A stretch of 44,499 bases of DNA from a virus. The notes under the pieces are model-generated. The model searched no databases. It was given only the letters and a program-made list of their open reading frames with translations, and was not told where the DNA came from. The translations under genes and the position numbers were made by a program. Location of the stretch: positions 1-44,499 of the IMG/VR virus record IMGVR_UViG_3300025138_000002, one strand, 5' to 3'. Position 1 is the stretch's first letter. Each line of letters begins with the position of its first letter. Shown here piece by piece: positions 4,980 through 28,400 of the stretch.

Positions 4980-5855
4980 TCAAGCAGCAATCTTGGCGGC
5001 GTCAGTAACCTGCAAGTCCTGCAGGTACTGAGCGGCGGCGCTGGCCTTAGATGCGGCTTTAAAAATCGCATCGTTGTCAGCTTTTAAAACATTTAACCAG
5101 CTGGCCAAATACTGCGCGTGGTCCTGACGCGGCTGGCTTTCCAGACCCAGCATGGCCATTAAGAATGCGCTGCCCAATTCAGCAACCAATTCTTCTTTGG
5201 CATAACCTGTCTGGTCGCGGCCAAGGTCACGGTCACACCGCTCCATTACTTTTGTCCAGTGTACCAGTTCGTGCAATTCAGTAGAGTAGTAGTCTTCAGT
5301 GGTGTGGAACAGATCGAAATCAGGCATGGTGATTTCATCAGTGGCCGGGCGGTAAAATGCGCTATGGCCTGCAACGTTGATGGTCGCTGCTGTGTTGACC
5401 ACAAAGTCATCGACATGCGCGATGCGCTGCTTGCCTTCGACCTTAGTGGCTGGTGCAGGGTGAAACTTAGCTGGCAGGTTGTCGATCTGGTCAGCATTAA
5501 AAACGTTGTACGTCTTGAGCATTGGGATGCGTTTCTCATCACCAGTGGCTTTGTCTTTAATAGTGAGCGGCTTGTAAAACACAATCATTGTGCCTTTTTC
5601 GCCTTTGCGCACCTGACCGCCCAGTGCCTCTGCCTGCTTGTATGTCATCCAGTTTGGATTGCCAAAGCCTGCCATCATCAGGATGATTACATTGACGCCT
5701 TTGTAATATTCGCCATTGGACCGGGTGGGCATACCGCCCAGACCAGCACGGTTCCAAGGGCAAGACCATGCGCCAAGCGAGGTGCTGTCTTCTAGCTGCG
5801 CGATGATTGCGTTGGTGACGTTAGTCTTGATATCGTTTGCGGTAAGTTTAGCCAT
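4980..5855 (-). CDS. ardC: ArdC-type antirestriction protein (ssDNA-binding domain plus zincin)
   Basis: A 291-residue protein with the ArdC plan. The N-terminal domain (about 1-125) has the characteristic WSCPWNRAG and GVNVIILMM segments and WMTYKQAEALGGQVRKGEKG. The C-terminal zinc metallopeptidase-like domain has HELVH at 195-199 and a downstream KEELVAELGSAF helix that could supply the third ligand. Known ArdC proteins bind single-stranded DNA and protect incoming DNA from restriction; they occur on plasmids and phages and as parts of polyvalent proteins. ATG at 5855 follows CCAACGGAGAATGTATC. It is the first gene after the promoter at 5905-5932, as expected for very early anti-defence expression. 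Confidence 0.92.
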   Translation of the reverse strand: MAKLTANDIKTNVTNAIIAQLEDSTSLGAWSCPWNRAGLGGMPTRSNGEYYKGVNVIILMMAGFGNPNWMTYKQAEALGGQVRKGEKGTMIVFYKPLTIKDKATGDEKRIPMLKTYNVFNADQIDNLPAKFHPAPATKVEGKQRIAHVDDFVVNTAATINVAGHSAFYRPATDEITMPDFDLFHTTEDYYSTELHELVHWTKVMERCDRDLGRDQTGYAKEELVAELGSAFLMAMLGLESQPRQDHAQYLASWLNVLKADNDAIFKAASKASAAAQYLQDLQVTDAAKIAA

Positions 5856-5904
5856 GATACATTCTCCGTTGGTTAATGGGCCACTGCCCCTGTCTCTGTC
5901 TATG

Positions 5905-5932
5905 ATTATACACCGATCAGTGCCTGATGCAA
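5905..5932 (-). promoter_or_regulatory. Sigma70-like promoter for ardC and downstream genes
   Basis: Read leftward: -35 TTGCAT (5932-5927), a 16-base spacer, and -10 TATAAT (5910-5905). The spacer begins with CAGGCACTGAT, a core shared with the promoters at 6731-6758 and 42337-42365 and nearly so at 44009-44036. The ArdC start lies about 50 bases downstream. Confidence 0.8.
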
Positions 5933-5957
5933 GTATTAATTTTAACTTGCATCAGGC
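5922..5957. repeat. 13-bp perfect inverted repeat overlapping the ardC promoter
   Basis: GCCTGATGCAAGT at 5922-5934 and its exact complement at 5945-5957 are separated by an AT-only 10-base spacer. One arm contains the -35 box and the start of the shared promoter core, so the element looks like an operator. It also stands just past the stop of the upstream leftward gene (5964) and could form an RNA hairpin, but no U-tract follows on that strand. Confidence 0.8.
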
Positions 5958-5963
5958 TTTGTG

Positions 5964-6428
5964 TTAGCGCCAGTTGGCGGTCAGTTCAAAGACGTTGGCA
6001 ACACGCGCCCGGCGTCTGACGGCTTTGCTTTTAATGCTGACAACGTCCCCGGTCAGACCGCACACATATCTGCGACCCTGCACCAGCTGCCAGTGCCAGC
6101 CAGACACGATCAGGAACACGCGGTCAGCCGTGCGTTCTTTGACCGTGGCTCTGAGCCAAGCAGCCAAGGTCGGACCAGTGGTGCGGTTCAGATTAAACCC
6201 GATAGTGTGCGGGGTTGCTGTTATGTCGTACTGGTTCAGCACTTGGATCACTTCACGCGGGTGCGTCCCGGTGATCATTTTGCGGCCAGTGTTTTCGCGG
6301 ATGCGCCGGGCGGCGTCCCCGGTACAGATGCCAGTGATGGCGCTGATAACAGATGGACCGCAATAACGGTTTCTGTCGGCGCGGACAGTACCGTGGTTGA
6401 CGGGGCGAATTTTAAAAGATTTTGGCAT
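5964..6428 (-). CDS. Cysteine-peptidase-like protein (C39/papain-like fold), small early protein
   Basis: A 154-residue protein. RYCGPSVISAITG (Cys23) resembles the catalytic cysteine motif CGPxA/S at the head of a helix in C39-like and related peptidases. GWHWQLV (His112) resembles the catalytic His strand, and Asp128 (LTGDVVSI) could complete a triad. The middle contains a predicted helix-rich stretch with HPREVIQVL. The start at 6428 follows ACAACGGAGACTATACT. It is expressed just before ArdC from the arm's first promoter and so is likely early. Function is unknown; it could be a processing protease or a factor that disables a host protein. Only the motif spacing supports peptidase activity. 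Confidence 0.72.
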   Translation of the reverse strand: MPKSFKIRPVNHGTVRADRNRYCGPSVISAITGICTGDAARRIRENTGRKMITGTHPREVIQVLNQYDITATPHTIGFNLNRTTGPTLAAWLRATVKERTADRVFLIVSGWHWQLVQGRRYVCGLTGDVVSIKSKAVRRRARVANVFELTANWR

Positions 6429-6448
6429 AGTATAGTCTCCGTTGTTGT

Positions 6449-6462
6449 GGGGCTGTTGCCCC
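6449..6462 (-). other. Short hairpin between two leftward early genes
   Basis: GGGGC-4-GCCCC lies just after the stop of the gene at 6468. It has no strong U-tract read leftward, so it is more likely a weak attenuator or mRNA stabiliser than a full terminator. Confidence 0.35.
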
Positions 6463-6467
6463 TTTGA

Positions 6468-6680
6468 TTAGCGGGTGCGCAGCTTACCGATGCGGCGCAT
6501 ATGCTCCATGGAATAAGTCATGCCCTGATCGGCATAAAAGTTTTCACGCTCCGGGTTCCAACCCTTCATTGCGTCCCGCGCATTGCGGCAGTCGGTGATG
6601 ATGTATTGCAGCGCCGCATCGTCTACGGTCTTGGCGTGGGCTTCCCACTTGGTAAATTCTGCGGCGGTTGCTCCAGACAT
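6468..6680 (-). CDS. Hypothetical early protein, 70 residues
   Basis: A small, charged, probably helical protein with no recognised domain. Residues 1-35 are predicted to be amphipathic helix, followed by WNPERENFYADQGMTYSMEHM and a basic tail. The ATG at 6680 is preceded by TTAGGAGACACAC, a good ribosome site. It is the first leftward gene after the promoter at 6731-6758, so it is likely among the earliest proteins made; many such proteins in other phages redirect host functions, but nothing here shows that directly. Confidence 0.72.
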   Translation of the reverse strand: MSGATAAEFTKWEAHAKTVDDAALQYIITDCRNARDAMKGWNPERENFYADQGMTYSMEHMRRIGKLRTR

Positions 6681-6730
6681 GTGTGTCTCCTAAAGTGTGC
6701 AGCGGCCCAGTGCCTCTGCCTCTAAAAATG

Positions 6731-6758
6731 ATTATAACGATATCAGTGCCTGACGCAA
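6731..6758 (-). promoter_or_regulatory. Sigma70-like promoter at the head of the leftward arm
   Basis: Read leftward: -35 TTGCGT (6758-6753), 16-base spacer beginning CAGGCACTGAT, and -10 TATAAT (6736-6731). It drives the genes from 6680 leftward. Confidence 0.8.
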
Positions 6759-6780
6759 GTGCTAATATCAGTGTTTGACA
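6742..6780. promoter_or_regulatory. Tandem 13-base near-repeats in the divergent control region
   Basis: ATCAGTGCCTGAC (6742-6754) and ATCAGTGTTTGAC (6767-6779) differ at two positions and start 25 bases apart. The first is the leftward promoter core; the second ends in TTGACA (6775-6780), a consensus -35 box facing right. A matching -10 is not evident: the hexamer 17 bases on is CAGACT. The region 6681-6825 separates the two transcription arms, so a shared regulator binding both copies is plausible. Confidence 0.55.
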
Positions 6781-6825
6781 AAATAATTATTGTGGCGCAG
6801 ACTGCGCACTTCAACGGAGGAAGCT

Positions 6826-7050
6826 ATGACTATGAAAAACTATTTTTCTGCACGATCACAATTTGAACGCCAATATCATGCCAAGTGGGATCGTGCTTTG
6901 ATGCGATCTGCAGGCATGTCACATTGTTTGAACAGTGACGGCAGTGGCTTCAACGTTGACCTTGTCTGGCTTGAACGGGCGAGATATCAAACAGCGGCAA
7001 ACGCGAAACGCGCTTTGCTCTGGCAACAGCGGAGAACCACAGATGAATGA
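6826..7050 (+). CDS. Hypothetical protein, first gene of the rightward arm
   Basis: A 74-residue basic protein, rich in Arg, Gln and Ala, with no known domain. ATG at 6826 is preferred because TCAACGGAGGAAGCT precedes it; an in-frame upstream start at 6790 lacks a ribosome site. This is the only clear rightward gene that carries the CAACGGAG leader typical of the leftward arm. Its end overlaps the start of the primase-helicase by 8 bases, implying coupled translation. Confidence 0.72.
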   Translation: MTMKNYFSARSQFERQYHAKWDRALMRSAGMSHCLNSDGSGFNVDLVWLERARYQTAANAKRALLWQQRRTTDE

Positions 7051-9581: not shown

Positions 9582-9741
9582 ACGTAAGGGGTTACAGCTT
9601 GAGCGATCAAGTTCATGCTCAAGTTTGCACAACACAGAAAACGTGTGCAACTTCAACAACTTACAACTTGATCAACTTGTTCCCCCTAAAGGGGTACTAC
9701 CGCTGGGTGCGGCGCACCCATTTGGGGAGACAGTCAATTGA
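9574..9741 (+). CDS. Possible small ORF, 55 residues, overlapping a repeat-rich region
   Basis: ATG at 9574 overlaps the end of the previous ORF, and its TGA (9739-9741) overlaps the TTG start of the resolvase (TTGA), so the spacing suits a coupled gene. However, the segment is dominated by CAAGTT/CAACTT repeats and hairpins, which gives a Ser/Asn/Leu-rich product that does not look like a folded domain. It may be a leader through which translation is coupled, or no gene at all. Confidence 0.3.
   Translation: MFKRKGLQLERSSSCSSLHNTENVCNFNNLQLDQLVPPKGVLPLGAAHPFGETVN
9605..9679. repeat. Nested inverted repeats and CAACTT array before the resolvase gene
   Basis: GATCAAGTT (9605-9613) pairs with AACTTGATC (9665-9673). 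Inside it, AAGTTTGCACA (9621-9631) pairs with TGTGCAACTT (9644-9653) with one bulged T. CAACTT occurs four times, at 9648, 9657, 9664 and 9673, and its inverse-type half CAAGTT at 9608 and 9620, with another CAAGTTTG at 9547. It could be a protein-binding array, a replication origin element or a structured mRNA leader. Confidence 0.6.
9704..9718 (+). other. Perfect hairpin upstream of the resolvase start
   Basis: GGGTGC-GGC-GCACCC forms a 6-bp GC-rich stem with a 3-base loop. No U-tract follows, so a terminator is unlikely; it may shape the mRNA around the resolvase ribosome site (GGGGAGA, about 9724-9730). Confidence 0.4.
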
Positions 9742-10235
9742 ATATAATCGGCATCGATCCCGGCTTGTCTGGTGGCCTTGCACACATCGATATATCTAAC
9801 GGCAAGCTGACCTACATCGATGGCATCAGAATGCCTGTGCTGCAGATAAGCACGAAGGCAAAGGCTGTTAACGCAGTGGCAATTGTTGAGTGGTTTAACA
9901 AACAGCACTTTGATGCAATTGTTTTAGAGCGCGTTGCATCTATGCCGGGGCAGGGCGTGGCCAGCACGTTTGCGTTTGGCAGGGCCATGGGTGGTGTTGA
10001 GGCGTTGGCGCAGACAATGGCACACGAACATGACTGCCGCGTGATATACGCGTCCCCGGCTGTGTGGAAAAAGGCAATGGGCCTGTCATCTAATAAGCAG
10101 GCAAGCATGGACATGGCAGCGGTTACGTTTGGACACAACCCACTGTGGCAGGTCAAAGCAAACGATGGAATTGCAGAGGCTGCACTGATGGCAGCGTGGC
10201 ATTATCGACAACACGCACACAGTGTGTTAGACTAG
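9738..10235 (+). CDS. RuvC-type Holliday junction resolvase
   Basis: A 165-residue RNase H-fold endonuclease that resolves branched DNA before packaging. GIDPGLSGG (residues 4-12) supplies the first catalytic Asp, LERV (about 63-66) the Glu, and NDGIAEAALMA (about 141-151) the C-terminal acidic residue. The segment MPGQGVASTFAFGRAMG is typical of phage RuvC-like resolvases. The start codon appears to be TTG at 9738, after GGGGAGACAGTCAA, and overlaps the stop of the preceding small ORF; no in-frame ATG exists near the conserved start. It stands next to the terminase genes, as is common for packaging-linked resolvases. Confidence 0.9.
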   Translation: MNIIGIDPGLSGGLAHIDISNGKLTYIDGIRMPVLQISTKAKAVNAVAIVEWFNKQHFDAIVLERVASMPGQGVASTFAFGRAMGGVEALAQTMAHEHDCRVIYASPAVWKKAMGLSSNKQASMDMAAVTFGHNPLWQVKANDGIAEAALMAAWHYRQHAHSVLD

Positions 10236-10259: not shown

Positions 10260-10412
10260 ATGGCCACAAAGCCCGGATTGTACGCCAACATAGCTGCGAA
10301 GAAGAAACGCATAAAAAATGGCAGCGGTGAAACCATGAGGAAAAAAGGCGCAGAAGGTGCGCCCAGCAACAAAGCGTTTAAGCAGAGCGCCAAGACTGCA
10401 AAGAAGAAATAG
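10260..10412 (+). CDS. Small Lys-rich phage protein, 50 residues
   Basis: A strongly basic protein (15 Lys) with the pattern MATKPGLYAN, GSGETMRKKGAEGAP and a KQSAKTAKKK tail, which I recognise as a widespread short phage protein family of unknown function, usually next to packaging or head genes. ATG at 10260 follows GGAGATAGCAC. It ends one base before the small-terminase start. DNA binding is likely from its charge but is inferred. Confidence 0.75.
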   Translation: MATKPGLYANIAAKKKRIKNGSGETMRKKGAEGAPSNKAFKQSAKTAKKK

Positions 10413-10413
10413 C

Positions 10414-11160
10414 ATGGCACAGGTGAAAAAGTATTACGTTTACACATTGACTGATCCGCGTGACCTCAAAGTTTTTTACATTGGCAAAGGCACAGCTGCA
10501 CGAAATTACGCGCACACTCACAAGCTGACGATGCCACAGTCAGACAACATGTCCCCCAAATCAAAATTGATACGCGACATCATTAACGATGGTGACGAGG
10601 TGGTCAGCACAATTGTCAAACGGTTCAGCGATGAACAAGCCGCGTATGATTTTGAAGCTGAGTTGATTGCGAAGACACCGGGCCTGCTAAACGCGATGGC
10701 TGGTGGCAGTGGGCGCAAGGCTAAAGATGAAAAGGCGCATGGGCTGACACCAAAGCAAGAGCGGTTCAGTCAGCTGGTCGCTGCAGGCAGCATGTCACAA
10801 GCAGACTGTTACCGTGAGGCTTACGATGCAGGCAACATGACTGACAAACAGATACATGAAGAGGCCAGCAAGCTAGCCAGCGGGAACCCAAAGGTTGCCC
10901 AAAGGATCGAACAGATAAAAGCCCCAGCTGTGCGAAATTCCCAGATAACACGCGAAGATATCTTGTCAGGTTTACACCGAGCGACTGAATTGGCTGAGAC
11001 AACTGCGCAAGCGGGGGCGATGGTTTCTGCATTGCGTGAGTTGGGCAAACTGATCGACGCGTACCCGGCAGAGCGCAAAGAGGTGCAGATCAACGATGAC
11101 ATGGTCAACAGAATACAGGCAGGCCGCAAGCTAGCGGCAGGGATACCTACTATTAACTGA
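10414..11160 (+). CDS. terS-like: Terminase small subunit fused to an N-terminal GIY-YIG nuclease domain
   Basis: A 248-residue fusion. Residues 1-100 form a GIY-YIG domain: YVY (8-10) and YIG (22-24) in FYIGKG, Arg30, a helix with Glu81/Glu83 (FEAELI), and Asn93 (LLNAMAGG). This is the layout of the LEM3-like GIY-YIG group, with the catalytic residues apparently intact. Residues 110-215 (LTPKQERFSQLVAAG, EASKLASGNPKVAQRI) match small terminase subunits that recognise phage DNA and bring it to the large subunit. ATG at 10414 is two codon-free bases after the preceding gene's stop; the open frame begins at 10357 with residues unlike the family. A nuclease on the recognition subunit could help cut the packaging site or attack competing DNA; activity is inferred. 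Confidence 0.85.
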   Translation: MAQVKKYYVYTLTDPRDLKVFYIGKGTAARNYAHTHKLTMPQSDNMSPKSKLIRDIINDGDEVVSTIVKRFSDEQAAYDFEAELIAKTPGLLNAMAGGSGRKAKDEKAHGLTPKQERFSQLVAAGSMSQADCYREAYDAGNMTDKQIHEEASKLASGNPKVAQRIEQIKAPAVRNSQITREDILSGLHRATELAETTAQAGAMVSALRELGKLIDAYPAERKEVQINDDMVNRIQAGRKLAAGIPTIN

Positions 11161-11275: not shown

Positions 11276-11466
11276 TGCCCTCTCAGGTACAGGGCAGGCC
11301 ACACGTCTGGCAAGCACCGCCACCGGGTCAGTCCCCGGTTGATGTGTGCATTGAGTGTGGTGAACGGCGCATCAGCCCCTACGAACAGACGGCATGTGAG
11401 CCTGACGCTGTCGGCGCATCACTGGGCCAGATAAGGACATTGCATGACTACAGCCCTATCGACTAA
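11275..11466 (+). CDS. Hypothetical small protein with CxxC
   Basis: A 63-residue protein with a Pro-rich N-terminus and CIECGERR followed by a further Cys about 15 residues on; possibly metal-binding. ATG at 11275 overlaps the preceding stop, and its end overlaps the large terminase start by 23 bases, so it is packed into the packaging operon. The function is unknown. Confidence 0.65.
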   Translation: MPSQVQGRPHVWQAPPPGQSPVDVCIECGERRISPYEQTACEPDAVGASLGQIRTLHDYSPID

Positions 11467-12928
11467 CACAGAGACGCAGCTGGCTGACCTTATGGCCGAA
11501 TGCTACGCCAACCCATTGCTGCATGTAATGGTCAGCTACCCATGGGGGCAGGGCCAACTAGACGGGCGCACTGGCCCGGACGTGTGGCAGGCTGAGTTTC
11601 TGCGCGAGGTAGGCAGCGAGGTACGCAAGCGAGGCTTCACCGGGCGCGATGCAGTTGACCCGCTACAGTTCAGCACGGCCAGCGGTCACGGCATTGGCAA
11701 GAGCGCCATCACGGCGTGGCTTATCCGCTGGGTCATGGACACCCGGCCATTCTGTAAAGGCGTGGTCACAGCGAACACATCCGAACAGCTGCGCACCAAG
11801 ACGTGGGCCGAACTGGCCAAGTGGCACGACATGAGCATCAGCAAGCACTGGTATCACATCAACAGCGGCGGCGGGTCCATGAACATGTACCACCGCGACC
11901 ACCGCAACACATGGCGCGTTGATGCACAGACTAGTCGCGAGGAAAACAGCGAGGCATTCGCTGGCCTACACGCTGCGTCATCGACACCGTTCTACATCTT
12001 CGATGAAGCATCAGCGATCCCGGACAAGATATTTGAGGTCCGCGAGGGCGGCTTGACCGATGGTGAGCCAATGACATTCGACTTTGGCAACCCGACACGA
12101 AACAGCGGCAGGTTCTATGAGAACATGGTCGGCAGGTTCAGACACCGCCTAATCAGACGGTTCATCGACAGCCGAGACGTGGCCATCACGAACAAACGCC
12201 TGCTTGACCAATGGGTCGATGACTACGGCGAGGACAGCGACTTCGTGAAGGTCAGGGTCAAGGGCGAGTTCCCCAGTGCCGGGGCGCTGCAGTTCATTGG
12301 CACAGACACTGTCGATGCCTGCGTTGGCATTGATGTGGCCGTGACACCCAACGATCCTGTGGTCATGGGCGTGGACGTTGCCCGGTTTGGTGACGATCAG
12401 TCTGTCATCGTGACCCGGCATGGCCGCGATGCTGAGAGCAAGCCATTGGAGCGATACCGTGGCGTGGACACCATGACGCTGGCATCCGAGGTGGCAAGGC
12501 TAGCCCGGCTGTATCGACCCGACACAATCTTCATAGACGGTGGCGGTGTAGGCGGTGGAGTAGTGGACCGATGCAGGCAGCTGGCTGTCGAGGTGGTCGA
12601 GATTAACTTTGGCAACAAGGCAACCATGGCAGGCTATGCCAACATGAGAGCGCAGTGCTGGGGCAACATGAAGGACGCCATAGCAGACGGCATCCGATTA
12701 CCTAACGACCCGGACATGAAGAGCGACTTGACCGGGGTGGAGTACGGCTACAATGTGCGCAACCAAATACAGCTAGAGAAAAAAGAAGACATGAAGAAGC
12801 GCGGCTTGCAGTCCCCGGACATTGCAGACGCCCTCGCATTGACATACGCGCACCCGGTACTGCCGACCCGCGCTGGCTACACCGGGGACGATTACGGCAA
12901 CGCTGAACACGAATACAACCCTTTTTAA
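11444..12928 (+). CDS. terL: Terminase large subunit
   Basis: A 494-residue DNA packaging motor. The N-terminal ATPase has Walker A SGHGIGKSA (about 80-88) and Walker B FYIFDEASA (about 182-190). The C-terminal RNase H-fold nuclease has GVDVARFGDDQS (about 308-319), FIDGGGVGGG (about 363-372) and PDIADALALTY (about 458-468), which supply the acidic residues. It drives DNA into proheads through the portal encoded downstream. The ATG at 11444 lies within the previous small ORF. The full-length match to the family is convincing. Confidence 0.95.
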   Translation: MTTALSTNTETQLADLMAECYANPLLHVMVSYPWGQGQLDGRTGPDVWQAEFLREVGSEVRKRGFTGRDAVDPLQFSTASGHGIGKSAITAWLIRWVMDTRPFCKGVVTANTSEQLRTKTWAELAKWHDMSISKHWYHINSGGGSMNMYHRDHRNTWRVDAQTSREENSEAFAGLHAASSTPFYIFDEASAIPDKIFEVREGGLTDGEPMTFDFGNPTRNSGRFYENMVGRFRHRLIRRFIDSRDVAITNKRLLDQWVDDYGEDSDFVKVRVKGEFPSAGALQFIGTDTVDACVGIDVAVTPNDPVVMGVDVARFGDDQSVIVTRHGRDAESKPLERYRGVDTMTLASEVARLARLYRPDTIFIDGGGVGGGVVDRCRQLAVEVVEINFGNKATMAGYANMRAQCWGNMKDAIADGIRLPNDPDMKSDLTGVEYGYNVRNQIQLEKKEDMKKRGLQSPDIADALALTYAHPVLPTRAGYTGDDYGNAEHEYNPF

Positions 12929-12972: not shown

Positions 12973-13530
12973 ATGGCAAACGACACAAAGATATCAGCAA
13001 GAATAGACGTGACCCCCCTTAACCCTGACAACAGGCGTATGGTGCAGTCGCTCTATGATATTGGCGATGCTATTGTGAAGGAAAGCACCACGTTTAAATA
13101 TTATGTTATGAAAGATAAGATTGACGCGCTAGTCGCTGAACATAAATTGCATATGGATGACGTTGTCATCGACAGCAGGACGTGCTGCTTTATGGCGTTT
13201 GCTAGGTTTAGCGATGACGCCGACACCTACGAACAACAGCCGCCGACATGCGTGGGCGCTGTCGCAGGTTTTGTGAGTGACAGCTGGTTTGACGGCAGCA
13301 CCTCACTCAACGATTTCTTTTTATACGTTCACCCAGCCGCCCGGCGCACTGGCACTGCCGAAATACTGATCGGCAATTACGAGTTGTTTGGCAGAGAGAT
13401 TGGTGTGGACAAGATTAATTTAGGCATATCCACAGGGCTGCGTCAAAAGGCGCTTGGCCGCTTTTACGAGAATGCTGGCTACCAGCAATCCGCAACCCAA
13501 TACACTAAGGAGATAGCGCATGTGCTTTAG
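12973..13530 (+). CDS. GNAT-family acetyltransferase-like protein
   Basis: A 185-residue protein. The central LNDFFLYVHPAARRTGTAEIL carries the beta-strand and Arg-x-x-Gly-type acetyl-CoA loop of GNAT proteins, and GRFYENAGY near the C-terminus matches the usual final motif (Tyr near an N-x-GY/F turn). It sits between the large terminase and portal genes, a position where podoviruses often carry a GNAT-like protein. The substrate is unknown; modification of a virion or host protein is possible. The ATG at 12973 follows TAGGATTGGCAAC. Confidence 0.8.
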   Translation: MANDTKISARIDVTPLNPDNRRMVQSLYDIGDAIVKESTTFKYYVMKDKIDALVAEHKLHMDDVVIDSRTCCFMAFARFSDDADTYEQQPPTCVGAVAGFVSDSWFDGSTSLNDFFLYVHPAARRTGTAEILIGNYELFGREIGVDKINLGISTGLRQKALGRFYENAGYQQSATQYTKEIAHVL

Positions 13531-13744: not shown

Positions 13745-15481
13745 ATGGTAATGATCACTCCAGAAAACCTGCCCAAGGGGCAGATGCAAGGAAAGCAGGC
13801 GCGGGTCTACAAGCGGTGGAAGTCGCTTGAGAATGACCGCTCGTCATGGCGCTCTCACTGGATTGAGATTAGCGATTACTTACTACCCCGGCGAGGAAAG
13901 TACCTGCTTGAAAGCAGCAACAGCCGGGGCCGTAAGCGCAACAACAGGATCATCGACAGTTCACCTACCCAATCGCTGCGCACTATGGCAGCGGGGATGA
14001 TGTCTGGCATGACTAGTCCAGCCCGGCCATGGTTTCGCTTTGCGACACCTGACCCGGAAATGATGGACAATTACGCTGTGCGTGAGTGGGTCCAGAACGC
14101 AGAATTGGTGTGTAGAAACGTTTTAAACAACAGTAATTTTTACAATACAGTCTACAACATCTACTCCGAACTGGGCGCATTCGGCACAGCACCCCTATAC
14201 CGACAGCGATCCGACAGCCAAGTCATCAGGTTTCGGCCATTTACTGCAGGCGAATACGTCATTGCAGAGAACGACCAAGGAATTGTGGACACGTTAGGCC
14301 GCAACTTTACGATGACTGTCGGCCAGCTAGTCGAAAAGTTTATTGCAGACCCCGTCACTGGAGACATGGCGTGGGAAAAATGCTCTGCAGCTACAAAGAA
14401 ACTGTACGACACCGGGGAATACGACACCCTTGTGCCAATTATTCACATGATACAGCCACGGCGGCGCGATGAACGCGACCCTACAAAGCTGGACGCCAAG
14501 AACAAACCCTTCCAATCTTGCTATTTTGAAGAGGGCGGGGACGGTAAAACCTTTTTAGAGGAAGGCGGTTATGACACATTTCCTGCATATGTTCCTCGCT
14601 GGGACGTTCTTAGCGGTGATGTTTATGGCCGTTCTCCCGGCATGGATCATCTTGGTGATATTAAGCAATTACAGCAGGAACAGAAGCGTAAGGCGCAGGC
14701 GATAGACAAGATGGTCAACCCGCCTATGGTCGCACCGACCAGTTTGCGCGGACGGCCCACAACAGTAATACCGGGCGGCACAACATACGTTGACGCTACC
14801 CAAGGCAATCAAGGTTTTCAACCAGCGTACCAAGTGCAGCCTCGTATCCAAGAACTGATGATGGATATACAAGAGGTGCAAGGTCGCATTGGACGTGGAT
14901 TTTACGCAGACCTTTTCGCCATGATGATCGGCTCAGACCGCCGACAGATCACGGCTACAGAAGTGGCCGAGCGCCATGAAGAGAAGTTAGTGTTGCTTGG
15001 ACCTGTGCTACAACGTTTGAACGTTGAACTTCTGGACCCGCTGTTGAAAGACACGTTTGGGTTTGCCATGGAAGCTGGGTTGCTTCCTCCCCCTCCCGGC
15101 GACTTGGCTGGGCAGAATTTGCAGATTGAATACGTCTCTCTGTTAGCACAGGCCCAACAAGCAGCTGCAGCCACAGGCATTGAGCGCACTATGGGCTTTG
15201 CAGGCAACCTAGTCGCGGTTTTCCCGAACATTGTAGACAACATCGATGCAGACAAGGCGCTGCGCGAATACTCACACATTCTGGGCAACCCGACTGACAT
15301 TCTGGTAGATAGAACCCTTGTTGAACAGACAAGAGCCGCACGGGCGCAAGCAGAGCAAGAACAACAACAGATGCAGCAACAGATGCAAATGGGTGCAGCC
15401 GGGGCGCAAAGCGCCAAGGTGCTGTCTGAAACAGACACCCAGAACCCTAATGCACTCACTGAACTACTAGGGAGAGGATAA
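13745..15481 (+). CDS. Portal (head-tail connector) protein
   Basis: A 578-residue protein of the podovirus head-to-tail connector family (T7 gp8 type). Recognisable parts are WRSHWIEISDYLLPRRGKYL near the N-terminus, SLRTMAAGMMSGMTSPARPWF, FRPFTAGEYV, and the C-terminal RRQITATEVAERHEEKLVLLGPVLQRLNVELLDPLL helix. The tail is Gln-rich (EQEQQQMQQQMQM). It forms the ring through which DNA is packaged and to which the tail attaches. The start at 13745 may alternatively be the second Met, two codons on. Confidence 0.93.
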   Translation: MVMITPENLPKGQMQGKQARVYKRWKSLENDRSSWRSHWIEISDYLLPRRGKYLLESSNSRGRKRNNRIIDSSPTQSLRTMAAGMMSGMTSPARPWFRFATPDPEMMDNYAVREWVQNAELVCRNVLNNSNFYNTVYNIYSELGAFGTAPLYRQRSDSQVIRFRPFTAGEYVIAENDQGIVDTLGRNFTMTVGQLVEKFIADPVTGDMAWEKCSAATKKLYDTGEYDTLVPIIHMIQPRRRDERDPTKLDAKNKPFQSCYFEEGGDGKTFLEEGGYDTFPAYVPRWDVLSGDVYGRSPGMDHLGDIKQLQQEQKRKAQAIDKMVNPPMVAPTSLRGRPTTVIPGGTTYVDATQGNQGFQPAYQVQPRIQELMMDIQEVQGRIGRGFYADLFAMMIGSDRRQITATEVAERHEEKLVLLGPVLQRLNVELLDPLLKDTFGFAMEAGLLPPPPGDLAGQNLQIEYVSLLAQAQQAAAATGIERTMGFAGNLVAVFPNIVDNIDADKALREYSHILGNPTDILVDRTLVEQTRAARAQAEQEQQQMQQQMQMGAAGAQSAKVLSETDTQNPNALTELLGRG

Positions 15482-18910: not shown

Positions 18911-21718
18911 ATGCCAAAGCTGATACAAACAAGTCTAAGTGGCGGCGAGATATCCCCGGCGGTTGCGGCGCGTGTTGACATCTCAAAGTACAAAAGCAGT
19001 GTGGCGCAAGCGACTAACATGCTTGTGCGTGTTCACGGCGGCATGTCAAACCGAACTGGTTTTAAATATGTAGCCCAAGTCAAAGACAGCAGCAAAGACG
19101 TGCGGTTGATCCCGTTTGCCTTTAACACAGAGCAAACATACATTTTAGAGTTTGGCGATTACTATGTCCGCGTAATTAAAGATGGTGGCCAAGTGCTGGA
19201 AAGCAGCGGCATCGACCCTATTACTGGCGCGACTAAGGCCAACCCTTGCGTAATTACTACAGGCAGCGCCCACGGTTTAGCTAGCGGTGACCAAGTCTAT
19301 TTCACAGGCGTGGGTGGCATGACTGAGTTAAACGGACGCACCCTCAACATCACGGTGCTTTCCACAACTACATTTAGTTTACAGACGTTAAACGGCGCAA
19401 CTGGCACAGACATTAACAGCACAAGCTACACTACTTACACTAGCGGCGGCAGCGTCAGCCGGGTTTTTGAGTTAGCAACACCTTATCCAGCAGCGTCATT
19501 ACGCGCATTAAAATATGTGCAGTCAGCTGACGTGATGACGGTGTGCCATCCAGATTACCCTCCGCAAGAACTTACACGAACTGACCATGACGCTTGGTCA
19601 ATAGGACCAATTGTATTTTACCCAACGCAACCCTTTCCCACCGGGCTGGGCGTAACCGTTACCACAACTGGCAGTGTCACAACTAAGTACGCTGTGACCG
19701 CTGTGAACGCGGACACTGATGAAGAAAGTCTGCGCGGTACTAGCGCAACGTTTACAATTACATTTGCTTCGCAAGCATCTGTTTGCGTGGTCACTACATC
19801 TAGCGCACACAGTTTAGTTATTGGTGATGAAATAAACATTGCTGCCGTGGCAGGCATGACTGAACTAAACGACAGACGTTATCGCGTTGGCACAGTCCCC
19901 ACTAGTACGACGATAACTCTAAACGACACCAGCATGGTCCCGGTCAACAGTTCTGGCTACACAGCCTACGACAGCGGCGGCACACTAGGTGTTGCGTTTA
20001 TTAAAATTACTAACGGCGCGTCTGACCCCGACAACGTTATTAGTTGGACAGCTGCAGACGGTGTTAGCCTGTACCACGTCTACAGAGATGACAACGGCAC
20101 GTTTGGCTTTATTGGGTCTACTGAGGTGACCTCTTTTACAGATAAAAACATTGACACTGAATTAACCGACACACCCCCGCGTGTACGCAACCCGTTTTTG
20201 CAGGCTGGATATTACCCGTCTACCGTTGCGTTTTACAATCAACGCCGGGTCTTTGCTAATTCTAACACTTATCCACAACGTATTTGGATGACACAAACCG
20301 CCAACATATCAAACATGGCCACATCTAATCCAGTGAAGGATGACGATGCGATCATCCTGACAATTGCAAGTATGCAAGTAAACGAAATACGCCACATGAT
20401 ACCATTGGCCCAGCTGATTGTGCTAACCAGCGGCGGTGAGTGGGAACTGGCAGGCGCAGGCGGCGCGGCATTAACCCCGTCATCTGTGGAAGTGATCCCG
20501 CAAACGTATTATGGCTCCACTGAGGTGCAGCCATTAGTGTCTGGTGCAAACGTTCTGTTCATTGAGCCGGGGCAGGTTGTCCGCGATCTGGGCTACCGTT
20601 ATGAGACAGACAGCTACACAGGCAACGACATCTCTATTTTGGCCCGGCACTTGTTTGAGGGCTTCAGTGTAACTGATTGGTCATTTGCCCAAGCACCTGA
20701 CAGTTCCGCGCACTGTGTACGCAACGATGGTAGGTTGTTGCACCTGACGTATTTAAAAGAGCAAGAGATTTTTGGTTGGACTACCAGCGAAACACGCGGG
20801 GACTTTTCTTCGTGCGCGACTGTAGAGGAAGACAACCAGCACGTTTTGTATGTTATTGTTGAGCGGTCTATCGACGGGCAGCTAGTTAAATATATAGAAC
20901 GCCAGCAGGAGCGGACTTACACACAGTTAGAAGACGCCTTCTATGTGGACGCCGGGCTGACTTACGATGTCCCCGTTGCAATTAGCGGTTACACGCAGGC
21001 AAACCCTGTAGTAATTACTGCGACTAGTCACGGGCTAGCAAATGGTGATACAGTAGATATATCAGAAATTCTAAAGGTGGATACCTCAGTGACAAAAGGC
21101 ACGTCCCTACAAGCTAATTTAAACCGCAACGGTTTTACGGTAGCTGACGTGTCCACAAACACTTTTTCGCTAAAGGCAAACAATGTGGCCGTGAACGGCA
21201 CTGCGTTTGCTGCGTACAACAGCGGTGGTAAAGTCCGCAAAGCAGTTACAAATATTTCGGGATTGTGGCACTTAGAAGGCCAGACTATTACAGGCGCGGC
21301 CAACGGCGATGTGCTTGACCCATTGACTGTAGTAAACGGCGCTGTAACTCTGCCGAACAAAGTTAGCCGCGTTCACTTGGGGTTGCCGTACTCTTCCACA
21401 GTGCAGACGCTGCGTTTAAATGTTCCATCTGGTGACGGCACAACAATCCAAGCAAGAGACAAAAAGATATCCCGTCTGACCGTGCGGACAGAAAAGACGA
21501 TGGGTTTAAAAGTAGGCCCGGACGCCGACACGCTGCGCGAAGTAAAGTTTGGCGTTCCCGGTACGTTTGGCCAGCCCCGTATTTTATATACTGGGGACAA
21601 AGACACCACGTTAAAACCCGCATGGGCAAAAGACGGGCAGTTTGTGATTGTGCAAGATGATCCTATGCCGCTGACTATTTTAAGCGTTATCCCTGACGCT
21701 ATTGTTGGGGGGAATTAA
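18911..21718 (+). CDS. Tail nozzle / tail tubular protein B-like
   Basis: A 935-residue tail protein. The N-terminus (TSLSGGEISPAVAARVDISKY, MLVRVHGGMSNRTGFKYVAQVK, LIPFAFNTEQTYILEFGDYYVRV) is typical of podoviral nozzle proteins. Three inserted beta modules share the pattern V-ITT-S-HGL-GD-V and end in a T-TFSL-type strand: about residues 106-165, 290-350 and 695-770. They resemble the FCCH/E1-type small barrels seen in phage tail proteins. The central part (LTSGGEWELAGA, VQPLVSGANVLFIEPG, VRDLGYRYETDSYTGNDISILARHLFEGF) is again family-typical. It forms the channel below the adaptor. ATG at 18911 follows AAGGGACTACT. Confidence 0.9.
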   Translation: MPKLIQTSLSGGEISPAVAARVDISKYKSSVAQATNMLVRVHGGMSNRTGFKYVAQVKDSSKDVRLIPFAFNTEQTYILEFGDYYVRVIKDGGQVLESSGIDPITGATKANPCVITTGSAHGLASGDQVYFTGVGGMTELNGRTLNITVLSTTTFSLQTLNGATGTDINSTSYTTYTSGGSVSRVFELATPYPAASLRALKYVQSADVMTVCHPDYPPQELTRTDHDAWSIGPIVFYPTQPFPTGLGVTVTTTGSVTTKYAVTAVNADTDEESLRGTSATFTITFASQASVCVVTTSSAHSLVIGDEINIAAVAGMTELNDRRYRVGTVPTSTTITLNDTSMVPVNSSGYTAYDSGGTLGVAFIKITNGASDPDNVISWTAADGVSLYHVYRDDNGTFGFIGSTEVTSFTDKNIDTELTDTPPRVRNPFLQAGYYPSTVAFYNQRRVFANSNTYPQRIWMTQTANISNMATSNPVKDDDAIILTIASMQVNEIRHMIPLAQLIVLTSGGEWELAGAGGAALTPSSVEVIPQTYYGSTEVQPLVSGANVLFIEPGQVVRDLGYRYETDSYTGNDISILARHLFEGFSVTDWSFAQAPDSSAHCVRNDGRLLHLTYLKEQEIFGWTTSETRGDFSSCATVEEDNQHVLYVIVERSIDGQLVKYIERQQERTYTQLEDAFYVDAGLTYDVPVAISGYTQANPVVITATSHGLANGDTVDISEILKVDTSVTKGTSLQANLNRNGFTVADVSTNTFSLKANNVAVNGTAFAAYNSGGKVRKAVTNISGLWHLEGQTITGAANGDVLDPLTVVNGAVTLPNKVSRVHLGLPYSSTVQTLRLNVPSGDGTTIQARDKKISRLTVRTEKTMGLKVGPDADTLREVKFGVPGTFGQPRILYTGDKDTTLKPAWAKDGQFVIVQDDPMPLTILSVIPDAIVGGN

Positions 21719-22197
21719 TGTTGCGCGAAATTAGAGACATGACGGTAGAGGATATTCCACAGGTGTTGGACTTATGCCGGGACATGGCAGCGCAAGGAAT
21801 AATGGCGAACTTTCCCCTTAACGAGGGGCGATCCGAATATGTGTTTAACCATATACTGGGGGACAGCGGTATTAATTTTACTGGCCCTGTGTTCGCTGAA
21901 GTTTTTGAAGTAGACGGCACAGTGCGTGGTTTCTTTGTAGGGCAGGTCACCACCCATGAATTTGTGCAGTGTCATATCGGCAGTGACTTAGGCTTTTATA
22001 TTGACCCCGACCACCGCGAAGGAACTTGGGGTGTTCGTTTAATTAAGAATTTTGAAGCGTGGTGCATGTCCCCGGACGTGCAGTGCGACATGATCAAGCT
22101 AGCGGTCTTTGCGGGTGTCGCTAATCAGCGCACTGCTGATCTGCTGACCCGGCTGGGATATTCAGACGCTGGGTCATTACACGCGAAGGAGATATAA
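21718..22197 (+). CDS. Second GNAT-like acetyltransferase in the virion region
   Basis: A 159-residue GNAT-like protein. It begins LREIRDMTVEDIPQVLDLCRDMAA, as many GNATs do, has VRGFFVGQVTTHEF and DLGFYIDPDHREGTWGVRLIKNFEAW (the acetyl-CoA-loop region, with RxGxxG weakened to REGTWG), and ends ANQRTADLLTRLGYSDAG, the usual last motif. It sits between the nozzle and internal core genes. Comparable genes in podoviruses are of unknown function. Its ATG overlaps the nozzle stop (TAATG). Confidence 0.82.
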   Translation: MLREIRDMTVEDIPQVLDLCRDMAAQGIMANFPLNEGRSEYVFNHILGDSGINFTGPVFAEVFEVDGTVRGFFVGQVTTHEFVQCHIGSDLGFYIDPDHREGTWGVRLIKNFEAWCMSPDVQCDMIKLAVFAGVANQRTADLLTRLGYSDAGSLHAKEI

Positions 22198-22726: not shown

Positions 22727-25423
22727 ATGGCAAGAGGACAAATACCAACGTTTGGCCCACAGGGTGAAGTCGGCAACATTCAGTTGCAGACTAACATTCA
22801 AGGCGGGTACTTAAACCCCGGACGGCCCAACGTTGAAAACGTGGGCAAGGGCTTAATGCAGCTGGCAGACGCCGGGTTTAAGATGGGCAACGCTCTGGTT
22901 GAAGCCGATGTTCGCGCTGGCAAACTAGCCGACAAGGCCGCTCTAATTGACGCGGAAACCCTGTGGGCAGAGTATTCTTTAAACAAGGAAATGAACTACC
23001 GGGGCAACGTGCGTGGACTTGGCGCTGGTAAAGGCTGGGCGCAAGGCAGCATCAATACAAACAAGCAAGAGTTGGCGCAGTTTATGAGCGGCAACATCTC
23101 TCTACAGGCTCCCCCCGGTGTTGATCAGGGCGCGTGGACAACACGCGTTAACAATTTAAATGCGCAGCTGCAAAAGCTGCGCCCAGAAAGTAAAGTTGCG
23201 CTGCAGCAGTTTGTTGGCCAGCAGTCAACTGCGTGGAACGCTAACGTTACGCGGTATCAGATTTCGCAGGCAGAAGCCGCGCTGGCGCAACAATTAAAAG
23301 TTAAAAGAGAGCAGGCCGCTTTAGCCGTGACAATTGCTGGCCCAGCAGATTTTGCTGGCTCGATGTTTAATTACTTGGTGACTACAAACCAGAGCAACCA
23401 AGCAGCTGGCGCAGTATCGGCTGGGGGCAGCAAAAGCGCAATTACAGTAGACACTACAACTGTAGGGACCAGAGCCATTGCAAAGGATGCGGCCAATCCC
23501 ACAAACGACGAACTGCGCGGTATTATTACTGACACGTCACCGTCTAAGTTATTTGACCCTGCGAACATGGTTGCTGTTAAAAAAGTGTACTTTGACGAAT
23601 TTCAAAACAAGCTAAACGGGCTGCTGACAAACAACGACTTTGAAAGTGCTAGGGCGTTTTTAACTACTTACTCTGACTTTAGCCTGTCCACTAGTCACCC
23701 AATAGACAGCCGCATTGTTGTCCCGGTTCACATTCAAGAGGCCATGCAGGCCAAAATAGTTGACGCTGAAAAGAGCGGGTATTTTGAAAGCGCCGCCACA
23801 GGTGTGGTTACGCAAAACAGCGGTGCGCTGCTAGCAGACAAAGTAAACGGCGAAACAGACGCGCTGGAAGCTGCGCAGGCGTTACTTGGTACACCCATTA
23901 AACAAATGAAAGACAACGCGTGGGTAAACCCCACACCCGACATTACAGGGCCGGGCCGCAGTAACATAACTAGTATGACACAAGCAGACGTGGACAGCGT
24001 GAAAACTAAAATACGCGCCAAGTTTGCAACGCATAACCGCCAGCAAGCAGCTGTAGAAGAACAGCAGGCACAGAAAATAATTGACAAGTGGGACGGCATT
24101 CTTGCTCAACACAAAAACACCAACGCCACTGGCGCGGCAGTATACCCGCAGGGACACACTTATAAGGAGTACGAGGGGTTATCTGAAACTGCGCGGTACA
24201 TAGTAGACCGCCGCTGGGCGCAACTAAATTCTGGCAACATAGGTGCTAAAGGCCCGACAGTTGTTAACAACGCTGCCATTGCTGCCGCGTGGACCGCTTT
24301 GCCACCATCTGCACAGGCAAAAGTGTCTTATGCCGACATGGTTAAAATAATTGAGGATAACGTTCCAGTAAGCAACACAGGAAGGATTGGCCAGCTGTGG
24401 GAAGCGTGGGGGAAGGTTGTAGGGTCCGCTCCGGGAATTGCTAAGGACGCACAAATTAAATTAGCAAGCACCAATGACGCTACAGCAAGAGACAATTTTG
24501 TAGCGGCAATGGCCAGCGCAAACACGGTGTTTAAGAATGCTGTTGAGCAAGGCAAAGCCAGATTGTTGACATCTTATGGCACGGGTACAAAGGCGGTAGA
24601 GCGCGGGAAAGCGGCGGCGATACTCTTTGAAAGCACCATGCAAGCTGAATACATGGAGAGGGCGTCACGCGGTGCAAATGGCGATCTGACTATGGACAAC
24701 AAAGATGTGGCTACTCTTCTGGCTGAAGTAACCCGGACCTTCAACACTAGTATCACGGCAGACCAAGGCGGTGTGTTTTCGTTTATTACCGGGTATGACT
24801 ACGGTGACCTTGGCAGCGGTAAGTATGGCATTTCACAGCTAACCTCTCCAATTAATGACCAGACGTACAGTGCGTTAAGCGAAGATGATAGAAAAACGCT
24901 AAAGGCCGCGCAGGTTGCATCGTTTGGGGATTGGAACAATAGTTATGACATGGGTGTTGTACCGCCTAGCGCGTACCTTGAGGTGGCGTCTCTGTACGCT
25001 AAGTCAGCGCCGTTGGCTAACACTGCCACAGGTAATCAGGCCAGCTTGCAGGGGCTGCAGCTGTTTACAGGAAACATGCACAGTTGGATTGAACAACAAG
25101 CTGGTGGCACTCTGCAGATAGGAAACTATTTTGAAGCCGCAAAGCGAGGCAGCTGGACAAACTCAACGGTAGAAAGGCGGCGCGAATTAATATACAAGAT
25201 GATAAACGCCACTTCCATACCGACCAGTGAGCGCCGCGCCAGATACACAGATAGTGGCGGTCAACCGTTATCTAACCAACGCAAGCCTATTATGGGAACA
25301 CGGGCTGGGGATGTTACGGCGGTGAGCGTCTACGGTCCTGCGCTGATGACTGAAACTACTGCTGGTCAAACACTATCCGCGCAAGATTACATTAATCAAC
25401 AAGCAAGGCTGTGGGCAAAATAA
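22727..25423 (+). CDS. Internal virion protein, gp15-like
   Basis: An 898-residue protein between the gp14-like and giant genes, in the place of T7 gp15. The N-terminus (GQIPTFGPQGEVGNIQLQTNIQGG, VENVGKGLMQLADAGFKMGNALVEA) resembles podoviral internal core proteins; the rest is largely helical with many Ala and Gln. It is likely packaged and ejected with the DNA to form part of the trans-envelope conduit. No enzymatic motif was seen. ATG at 22727 follows TTTAGGAGCGCACT; its TAA overlaps the next ATG (TAATG). Confidence 0.8.
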   Translation: MARGQIPTFGPQGEVGNIQLQTNIQGGYLNPGRPNVENVGKGLMQLADAGFKMGNALVEADVRAGKLADKAALIDAETLWAEYSLNKEMNYRGNVRGLGAGKGWAQGSINTNKQELAQFMSGNISLQAPPGVDQGAWTTRVNNLNAQLQKLRPESKVALQQFVGQQSTAWNANVTRYQISQAEAALAQQLKVKREQAALAVTIAGPADFAGSMFNYLVTTNQSNQAAGAVSAGGSKSAITVDTTTVGTRAIAKDAANPTNDELRGIITDTSPSKLFDPANMVAVKKVYFDEFQNKLNGLLTNNDFESARAFLTTYSDFSLSTSHPIDSRIVVPVHIQEAMQAKIVDAEKSGYFESAATGVVTQNSGALLADKVNGETDALEAAQALLGTPIKQMKDNAWVNPTPDITGPGRSNITSMTQADVDSVKTKIRAKFATHNRQQAAVEEQQAQKIIDKWDGILAQHKNTNATGAAVYPQGHTYKEYEGLSETARYIVDRRWAQLNSGNIGAKGPTVVNNAAIAAAWTALPPSAQAKVSYADMVKIIEDNVPVSNTGRIGQLWEAWGKVVGSAPGIAKDAQIKLASTNDATARDNFVAAMASANTVFKNAVEQGKARLLTSYGTGTKAVERGKAAAILFESTMQAEYMERASRGANGDLTMDNKDVATLLAEVTRTFNTSITADQGGVFSFITGYDYGDLGSGKYGISQLTSPINDQTYSALSEDDRKTLKAAQVASFGDWNNSYDMGVVPPSAYLEVASLYAKSAPLANTATGNQASLQGLQLFTGNMHSWIEQQAGGTLQIGNYFEAAKRGSWTNSTVERRRELIYKMINATSIPTSERRARYTDSGGQPLSNQRKPIMGTRAGDVTAVSVYGPALMTETTAGQTLSAQDYINQQARLWAK

Positions 25424-28400
25424 TGGAAAACCTCTCAGGTACACAGACAGCCTCTGGCATCTTGCAAGATGAAGACGAAAACAACAGCGCCGTTAGGCAG
25501 TATAACACAGACGGCATCCTGCCGTTTATGCTGCCCGTGGCTGGTAACACAGACGGGACAGGCCGTGAACTGGGGCCGCTAACGTCAGACGCAGCGCCAG
25601 TGGCAGTTGACGTGTCTGCAGCGGAAGTTTTAGGAAACGAAGAAGGCGACCTCACTGCTAAAGTTGCGCTGAACTTTCAAAACGCGGCGATGACAGAAAG
25701 CGACATTCCCCCGGAGTTGCGTACACAAATTACAGACGAAATTTTAAGCCGCCCCGGCATGGAATTTTTCACGCAGCGCAAAGGCGAGATTGAAGCCGTA
25801 GTGCAAGAAGAATTTGCAAAGCGGATGTATGACCAAAACATGGCGTGGCTAGAAGGTAACCCGCGTTTAAAATCGTTTTTTGCTGACCCGGTAAATAACA
25901 AACTGTCCCAGCGCGATATAAACGATGGCAGGCTACAATTTTTTATTCGTCAGGTAGACGCCATATCTGCGGGAAACAAAGCTACGGGCTGGTGGGATCA
26001 GACATTTGAAAATTTTTGGGAAGAGCAAGGAATAATTTTTAAGGACGCAGGCAGAGGTATAGCGTCAGGTCTTGGAAAGATGCTGTACTCATCTGGCGCA
26101 GCGCAATTACAAGCTAACCAAGCGCAGCTTATGGGGACACAAGCGTTGGTGGGGAAACTCTCTGGCGATACTAATGAAGAAATTGAAACAACGCTGAACA
26201 AGACTGCAATCACCCAACAGCGCCCATGGATTGAAGCCACACTTACTGCAGACGAACTAGCGGCGTATGACGCAGCTGACGGCACTACTCCAGACGGACA
26301 GTCGGTTCAGAACGAACTATACTTGAAGGCGCTGTCCGAAACTAAAATTGAAGTTTTTGAAGACGTACAAGAATTTACAGACGGCATGTGGGGTGGCCGC
26401 GAAAATGACAAACGCGCTCTGCGCATTATTCAAGCGCGTCTACCTGACGGCGGCAGCGCGTATTGGGTGCGGACAGTGCAAGGCGCTGTGGTGCAAATGG
26501 CTCCGACCATCACTGCAGGCATCCTGTCAGGCGGCACGTTATCTGCCCCGGCAGCGGTAACCTTCTTACAGGTATTCGGCAGGACATATGACACAGCTTC
26601 CCACCGGGAGGGCTGGACGCACGAACAGGCGCTGGGCGAAGCTGTATTTAAAGCTAGCGTTGAGATGGTTAGTGAACGCCTGCTGGTTATGGGTAAGCTG
26701 TTCCCCAGACGCCGGGGTGGCAATCCAAATGTTGTGGATGAGGTCGCAGGCAGCGCGCTAACCAAATTTTTAAAAGTGGCCGTTTTAGAAGGCGCACAAG
26801 AAACGTTTGTGGAAGCAGTAGATATTGCTTACGCCAACGGTATTTTAGATGAGGACATTGGGCTTCAAGAGGGCATTGAGCGATTAATTGCGGCGGGGCT
26901 AGTTGGCTTTGCTGTCGGTGGCCAGATGAAGCTAACCGTTTCTGGCATCAACATGGTCAAGACAGGCGTGTTGGGGAACAGGTCGCAAGAGTATATCGAC
27001 CAATTGAAAGCGGCAAACGATGCCGCACAGAACCTTGATCTAAAGATTGTAGCGCCCACAGCTGTGCAGGACTTAGTAGAGGCGGCGCAAGAAGACGCAA
27101 ACGCCACTGTGCTAGTTAACGCGCAGGCTGTTCTTGACCTACACCAAGACATTATACAGACAGAAGCGTGGCAGCTGGAAAACCCGGCTGACAACAACGC
27201 CAACACTGTGGCCGCTGCGCTTGGCATTAACATGGAAGAGTTAAAGGCCACTGCCGTTGAGGGCGGCGACATTTCTATTAAAACTAGTACGCTGGTAACG
27301 CTAGACCCAGCACAACTAGAAACCCTGTCATTAGATGTTCGCGAGAACATTGGCGCGTTTACCTTGCGAGAGCATCAAGATCAATTAAAAGCGCGACAGG
27401 CAGACGTTGAAGCAGTAACGCTGGCGCTACAAGAAAACCAAGCCGCGATGGAAGCCGAGGCCAAGCCCGGAGCGGCTATCTACGACCTAGTGCAGCAACA
27501 GGCAATTGACAGCAACGTAACCGCTGTTGAAGCCGACACTAGAGCCACGATGATCCAAGAGTTTTACGTTACTCAGTCGGCTCTATTAGAAAACCCAGAC
27601 GGCAGTAAGGTTACCCCGGAGCAACTGTTTGCCGAACAAAACGTTGTGTTTAAAAGCCCGACCACACCTGACGTGTCTTCTACCACTCTAGAAGTCCCTG
27701 CTACAGAAGCACTGGCGTCTGTAGTAATGGACACCGGGCCAGAGGCGTTAGTCCTCACCCCAGAACAATTAGTGCCGCCCGTGATTGCTACGCCAGAGAT
27801 GGCCGCGCCGTCATCTGACCCTGCTATTAATACATTGCCGTCCGCTAATACTGTGCAGCCTGATATCGGCACTGCCCCAGAGATAGGAACCGCACCTGTT
27901 ACTCCTGTTGCGCCTGACCCACAGGTCGCTGCAGAAACTGTAGACGCTGCCGCACAGGCGGCTGCAGTGGACACCACAGGGCCAGCTGCAGTTTCTGACG
28001 CACCTACTGATGCAGCGACAGCTGTTGAGCCTGTAGCCCCGCCTACAGCAGAGCGGCCTGCAGGAGAACTGCCGTCTGTTAACGATTTGACTGACAGAAT
28101 TAAAGCAGGGTTTTTAGAACAGAGCGCACCACAGCCGCCACTGACTACAGAACAAACGCTGGAACTGGAGCAATCGCAAGCAGTGATTGAAGGCCAGCAA
28201 GGCAGCATGTCTACACAGATTGCCACTACTGCAACCGCATACCCTAAAGTGGTGGAGCGGGTAGAGAACCAATTTTTAGAACGCCCGGTCACTACTATCT
28301 TAGACTACGGCTCTGGGTTGGGCTTTGGCAGTCAGTTGTTGGCGCAGTCTGGCCGGGACGTTGAAAGTTACGAACCAAACCCTGACCGGGCAATTGCGGC

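Follow-up and report, generated by a model that had tools for sequence, protein, structure and literature searches.

Small terminases and terminase-linked nucleases

To our knowledge, small terminases (TerS) are regarded as non-catalytic DNA recognisers, and the large terminase (TerL) as the sole cutter of the packaging motor. TerS proteins of the Terminase_2 type, such as those of Pam5, Acinetobacter phage AP22 and SF6 (G1P), combine a helix-turn-helix (HTH), long helices and a tail, and are encoded directly before TerL. Known small terminases are proteins of 15-21 kDa without a nuclease domain (PMC9611059), in agreement with the initial annotation of the DNA described here, which held that they normally work without a nuclease of their own. 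A second nuclease can join packaging cleavage, as in HK97, where the HNH protein gp74 stimulates cos cleavage (PMC11331095). The region upstream of the terminase draws GIY-YIG nucleases, including T5orf172, as well as HNH nucleases; the authors of that work interpret this as a hot spot for homing and also note that the HK97 HNH protein works with the terminase (PMC10448857). GIY-YIG homing endonucleases are either free-standing or intron-borne, with NUMOD or minor DNA-binding modules. Two other enzymes provide close comparisons for the nuclease domain. CMoRE carries an N-terminal GIY-YIG domain, a flexible linker and a C-terminal DNA-recognition domain, and cuts the DNA that this domain recognises (PMC12923530), while the catalytic set of human ANKLE1 consists of Y453, Y486, H498, K519, E551 and N565 (PMC10287932).

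A GIY-YIG nuclease domain within the small terminase

The window, meaning the whole stretch of 44,499 nucleotides that was analysed, is an IMG/VR virus record (IMGVR_UViG_3300025138_000002) whose genes are ordered as in T7-like short-tailed phages: prim-pol/AAA protein, RuvC-like resolvase, fusion, TerL, GNAT, portal and capsid. The fusion gene (10414..11160, + strand) is a single open reading frame (ORF) of 248 codons with no internal stop, and its 248-aa product is a small terminase with an added N-terminal GIY-YIG nuclease. The joining of these two domains had been proposed in the initial annotation and is borne out by the single ORF and by the recovery of both folds with AF2 and Foldseek. 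Two separate genes or a frameshift in place of a fusion were rejected, as the ORF is unbroken and the in-frame starts near the linker are not conserved. One such start codon in the window protein, M95, has no Shine-Dalgarno sequence. Two other fusions (L042 and L082) have an in-frame ATG at residue 103, preceded in L082 by AGGAG; judged from sequence, translation from it could additionally give TerS without the nuclease, with L082 the more plausible case.

The LEM-3-type GIY-YIG nuclease domain occupies 10429..10698 (+; residues ~6-95), where it is matched by Pfam LEM-3_GIY-YIG PF22945 (E=1.2e-10, 42.1 bits, cut-off 27), a family that matches 20/20 proteins of alignment A4 (18 fusions and 2 stand-alone nucleases). 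In PHROGs the domain corresponds to phrog_5356 (7.5e-22). Among solved structures, PD-T4-3 (9u75) matches residues 7-100 with E=7.6e-14, and the padloc PD-T4-3/CMoRE match (1.7e-19) ends at residue 101. Foldseek retrieves PD-T4-3 and T4 EndoII with the first half of the fusion model, and also UvrC and I-TevI when the nuclease half is modelled alone (48 sequences). The ANKLE1 catalytic set is matched by Y10, Y22, H34, K49, E81 and N93, and the three tyrosines of the GIYxY-YIG motif are Y8, Y10 and Y22. The annotated landmarks Y8-V9-Y10, Y22-I23-G24, R30, E81 and N93 are all in place; E83, also listed, is a second glutamate, and of the two only E81 is invariant. On the strength of these residues, we propose that the nuclease would be catalytically competent. 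Its substrate cannot be read from them, because all GIY-YIG enzymes share them.

The second half carries the features of a small terminase. Pfam Terminase_2 (PF03592) matches residues 111-197 weakly (E=0.0033, 18.5 bits, below the 26.1 cut-off), and the same family is matched by 12 of the 20 A4 proteins, at best with 1.6e-11. PHROGs assigns the protein to terminase small subunits (phrog_51, E=1.3e-11; phrog_1595, E=1.9e-8), the small terminase of Pam5 (21di) matches residues 112-226 among solved structures (E=0.0015), and Foldseek aligns the second half with the SF6 TerS DNA-binding domain (2cmp/4zc3, prob 0.87). AP22-like TerS proteins are 37-41% identical to the fusion, and the unfused TerS of Bordetella phage IFTN is 50% identical to the core of fusion L258. 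The fusion gene lies directly upstream of TerL, with no other TerS candidate between them. Given its length of 248 aa and its GIY-YIG domain, which accounts for ~100 extra N-terminal residues relative to known TerS, the protein is a TerS variant and not an ordinary TerS.

Structure prediction, suggested in the initial annotation as a check, gave the GIY-YIG fold for the N-terminal half and an all-helical, TerS-like C-terminal half (AF2/Foldseek). In the AF2 model, strands 7-14 and 19-27, helix 48-58, strand 64-71 and helix 74-87 follow the beta-beta-alpha-beta-alpha GIY-YIG order. A flexible Gly/Lys-rich linker (10699..10743, +; residues ~96-110), which is the site of module exchange and appears disordered at 99-109 (pLDDT below 50), separates the nuclease from the helical half. 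There, an HTH followed by long helices reproduces the TerS fold: the HTH DNA-binding domain, placed by Terminase_2 and Foldseek, spans 10744..10899 (+; residues ~111-162), and the long-helix oligomerisation region with the C-terminal tail spans 10900..11160 (+; helices 159-175, 180-197, 200-213 and 228-242). With a pTM of 0.37, the model is unreliable as to the relative placement of the domains.

Likeness to described GIY-YIG enzymes is partial. The nuclease is ~40% identical to that of the type IV restriction enzyme CMoRE/PD-T4-3 (PDB 9u75, 9u7u), with which it shares the GIYxY-YIG motif and the order of N-terminal nuclease, flexible linker and C-terminal DNA-recognition part; however, it lacks the acidic lid and the 5hmC-sensing domain, has TerS as its recognition part, and belongs to a separate clade and a phage packaging gene, whereas CMoRE/PD-T4-3 is a bacterial defence gene. 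Loop 31-48 of the window protein holds 1 acidic residue, and an acidic run of 3 occurs among the fusions only in L258. With LEM-3/ANKLE1 the fusion shares PF22945 and the Y, Y, H, K, E, N catalytic set, but it is viral and has no LEM or ankyrin domains. The homing endonucleases T5orf172, Seg and I-TevI have the same fold and often lie near terminase genes; in contrast, the fusion is neither free-standing nor intron-borne, sits in-frame in TerS and forms a separate clade free of decay. Pfam found no NUMOD or other homing DNA-binding module in the window protein or the A4 proteins.

The terminase locus and its relatives

Directly upstream of the fusion, and as the initial annotation had read it, is a gene for a RuvC-like Holliday-junction resolvase (9738..10235, +; phrog_1770, E=2.8e-25). 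Between the two lies a 50-aa basic protein (10260..10412, +) whose stop abuts the start of the fusion, so that translational coupling of the pair is likely; two other fusion loci (L031 and L276) have a similar short ORF placed after the fusion gene. Downstream follow an epsilon15-like TerL of 494 aa (11444..12928, +; phrog_2, E=1.7e-42; 40% identical to epsilon15 TerL) and the portal, a head-to-tail connecting protein (13745..15481, +; PF12236, E=6.8e-168). GNAT acetyltransferase genes occur within the structural module at 12973-13530, between TerL and portal, and at 21718-22197. Elsewhere in the window, 4980-5855 (-) encodes an ArdC-type anti-restriction protein (ArdcN, 6.6e-32; MPTase-PolyVal, 1.6e-44), and a single ORF of 3,772 aa (25411-36729) lies downstream of the structural genes. 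No Pfam family matches it at E<=0.001; by eye, a HEAGH zinc-protease-like motif and a stretch resembling a methyltransferase can be made out, and its product is likely a polyvalent ejected protein.

The TerL motifs SGHGIGKS and FDEAS (Walker) and the RNase H-like aspartates D311, D365 and D459 are invariant, leaving both ATPase and nuclease motifs intact. The GIY-YIG domain as a stand-in for a lost TerL nuclease was therefore rejected. In L258, TerL (5673-6983) is a mosaic, its nuclease half being 49% identical to the window TerL and its ATPase half not aligning.

Neighbours were compared in a set chosen by TerL similarity, and thus blind to TerS, of which 49 loci extend 2 kb or more upstream. 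The fusion is present in 18 of these, and in 23 of the other 31 the same slot holds a ~100-aa basic protein that starts with GGRxKGTPNKTT (L293:2654-2953 and its equivalents) and belongs to phrog_11043, with no named family. From its position this is probably an alternative, nuclease-free TerS. A profile seeded on the short protein reaches the fusion in 7/18 loci. The similar C-terminal tail presumably accounts for this and, since its pattern is common to both, is probably a shared TerL-docking part. Among isolate relatives, Vibrio phage 1.185.O, whose TerL is 49% identical, is an example with a plain TerS of 152 aa. Because a nuclease-free TerS serves in relatives that share this TerL, the GIY-YIG domain is accessory and belongs to one TerS lineage.

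A resolvase is encoded next door in 16/18 fusion loci with enough upstream sequence and also in most unfused relatives; in both groups it is either RuvC-like or a PD-(D/E)XK protein (weak match to Hjc/PDDEXK_15, clear match to phrog_244). Replacement of a resolvase by GIY-YIG was accordingly rejected as a general rule. In a test of whether GIY-YIG replaces HNH, an upstream HNH gene was found in 0/18 fused vs 6/31 unfused loci (Fisher p=0.07). The GIY-YIG domain is thus neither required by the TerL type nor a substitute for the resolvase.

Conservation, phylogeny and module exchange

Homologues with the same domain pair, whose search the initial annotation had recommended, are numerous: 35 intact fusion proteins were aligned. 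A first scan with the pattern DPRxxxxFY[IV]GKG matched at least 119 viral and at least 118 bacterial stretches and gave eight further fusions among the matches listed, all of them viral. These pattern scans stood in for a multi-family GIY-YIG alignment, which was too diverse for a locus scan. In the second, a stricter DPRDL form that was exhaustive over viral contigs, 27/27 contigs carry GIY-YIG-TerS fusions, which is no unbiased rate, since the pattern was derived from known fusions. Five more came from the TerL scan. The fusions from the pattern scans form 13 clusters at 90% identity, with 33-86% identity between clusters, and TerL follows on the same strand wherever the DNA extends far enough.

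Across the family the nuclease is intact. Y10, Y22, G24, G26, R30, K49, E81 and N93 are kept in 35/35 fusions, and H34 in 32/35 (Ser in 3/35); no inactivated or decayed nuclease copy occurs among the 35 proteins. In close pairs, dN/dS is mostly 0.03-0.07 for the nuclease half (0.20 in one pair) and 0.06-0.39 for the TerS half, the nuclease half usually being under the stronger purifying selection. Such low values show that it is no decaying passenger. The fusion was not found in 50,697 isolate phage records: one search gave two jumbo-phage records that are covered over their full length but are not TerS, and the other searches gave none. The match to Erwinia phage pEa_SNUABM_22 (95% cover) was rejected because its C-terminus has no TerS pattern. 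No description of it was found in the open-access literature searched. TerS and LEM-3-type GIY-YIG domains are each known already, and their fusion, in an uncultured tailed-phage family, is real, old and strongly selected.

Stand-alone LEM-3-type GIY-YIG genes also occur near terminases. Among the matches listed, 22/111 other viral loci and 3/118 bacterial loci have such a gene immediately before TerS/TerL and in the same orientation; the isolate Rhizobium phage RHph_Y1_10 and the metagenome phage ctHz2215 also have one before TerS/TerL. In RHph_Y1_10 (L017, 3998-5464), two GIY-YIG genes flank a short TerS: the LEM-3-type gene (EVB56_065) precedes it, and a Seg-like gene separates it from TerL. 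A tree was built from 119 LEM-3-type domains, 13 of them fused; few columns for many rows leave its deep forks soft. The fused domains group in a single clade, which requires one change in 98% of bootstrap trees (branch support 97/49) and is distinct both from a cluster of homing-like viral domains and from one of bacterial PD-T4-3-like domains. A second supported clade (98/95) unites twelve stand-alone nucleases whose genes adjoin TerS/TerL.

The trees of nuclease, TerS and TerL conflict: L265 and L258 combine window-like nucleases with other TerS cores, and L265 also has another TerL type. Natural domain swaps are most evident in three fusions. L031 (3299-4048) and L276 (658-1452) are 99% identical in the nuclease and 100% in the oligomerisation part vs 48% in the HTH, a pattern in which target choice seems to reside in the HTH. 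Conversely, L031 and L323 are 96% identical in TerS and 44% in the nuclease half, that of L323 being nearer to L072/L111 (61-63%) than to L031; here the nuclease has been replaced, not lost, above a constant TerS. Beneath a constant nuclease the HTH is exchanged by recombination, and so is the nuclease above a constant TerS, yet a nuclease is always present. Recognition and cutting modules are exchanged independently in nature.

Possible roles of the fused nuclease

The initial annotation listed three roles, namely nicking at the packaging site, clearance of branched DNA together with the adjacent resolvase, and degradation of competitor DNA. The explanation we favour, to which we give about an even chance, is that the TerS-guided nuclease nicks or cuts phage DNA for packaging. 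From TerS biology, the core would form a ring whose HTH locates the packaging region of the concatemer, while the tail, common to the alternative short TerS, would dock on TerL. GIY-YIG domains on flexible linkers could then nick or cut the DNA held by TerS and so help TerL to start or finish packaging; we infer the cleavage itself as well as its site and timing. By analogy, TerS would thereby incorporate the function that has been proposed for the separate HNH protein of HK97. Both are second nucleases tied to the terminase, gp74 through the operon and a role in which it is thought to help the terminase cut, the fusion through a linkage that is observed; gp74 is, however, a separate protein with an HNH fold, whereas the fusion places a GIY-YIG fold within TerS. 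A guided cut is supported by the occupation of one slot by fusion and short TerS in same-TerL relatives, by the intact and strongly selected nuclease, by the HTH and nuclease swaps, by the stand-alone GIY-YIG genes before terminases, and by the precedents of HK97 gp74 and CMoRE. Against it, the TerL nuclease looks intact, so that a second nuclease is not obviously needed, and same-TerL relatives manage without one. A repeat search around the fusion gene gave no convincing pac/cos candidate. A more far-reaching version, in which TerS is itself a guided endonuclease, a ring with one GIY-YIG site per subunit that cuts HTH-selected DNA, so that TerS, and not TerL alone, makes or initiates the packaging cut, is a tentative idea that we consider somewhat improbable.

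It is unlikely, though worth weighing, that the tethered GIY-YIG domain instead debranches DNA, cutting forks, flaps and junctions that would stall the motor. T4 endonuclease VII clears such motor-stalling branches, and LEM-3/ANKLE1 acts at chromatin bridges. Nucleases that resolve branches (RuvC-, Hjc- or VRR-type) are common in the position next to TerS, and the domain family, LEM-3/ANKLE1 (PF22945), is a junction-selective nuclease (PMC10287932), but the same family includes a modified-base restriction enzyme (PMC12923530) and so does not fix the substrate. Moreover, GIY-YIG neither replaces nor tracks the resolvase, and a packaging cut is favoured over debranching because most fusions, and their GIY-YIG-free relatives, already have one upstream.

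Less probable still is a homing-like selfish element: terS would have captured a GIY-YIG gene that propagates itself through cleavage of insert-free terS alleles. The region upstream of the terminase is a known hot spot of homing-type nucleases, T5orf172 included (PMC10448857), RHph_Y1_10 has, in addition to its LEM-3-type gene, a Seg-like one that separates TerS from TerL, and the nuclease exchange on a constant TerS (L323 vs L031) could be gene conversion. However, the domain is read in frame with a packaging gene and has no homing module, 0/35 copies are decayed, purifying selection is strong, and the fused domains form one clade apart from homing-like GIY-YIG rows. A weapon that degrades host or competitor phage DNA with TerS oligomers as carrier is very improbable: the closest solved relatives, PD-T4-3/CMoRE, are defence restriction enzymes and T4 EndoII has the same fold, but the acidic autoinhibitory lid and modification-sensing domain of CMoRE are missing, and tight linkage to TerL and TerS function gives no call for such a role.

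The old and strongly selected fusion suggests that in these phages DNA is cut at the packaging machine in a manner not described before, and terminase-linked nucleases extend beyond HNH proteins. A lineage-wide TerS with an intact nuclease allows the place and time of the packaging cut to be tested in one protein, and the natural swaps, of the HTH with a constant nuclease and of the nuclease with a constant TerS, provide existing material for asking what determines the cut site.
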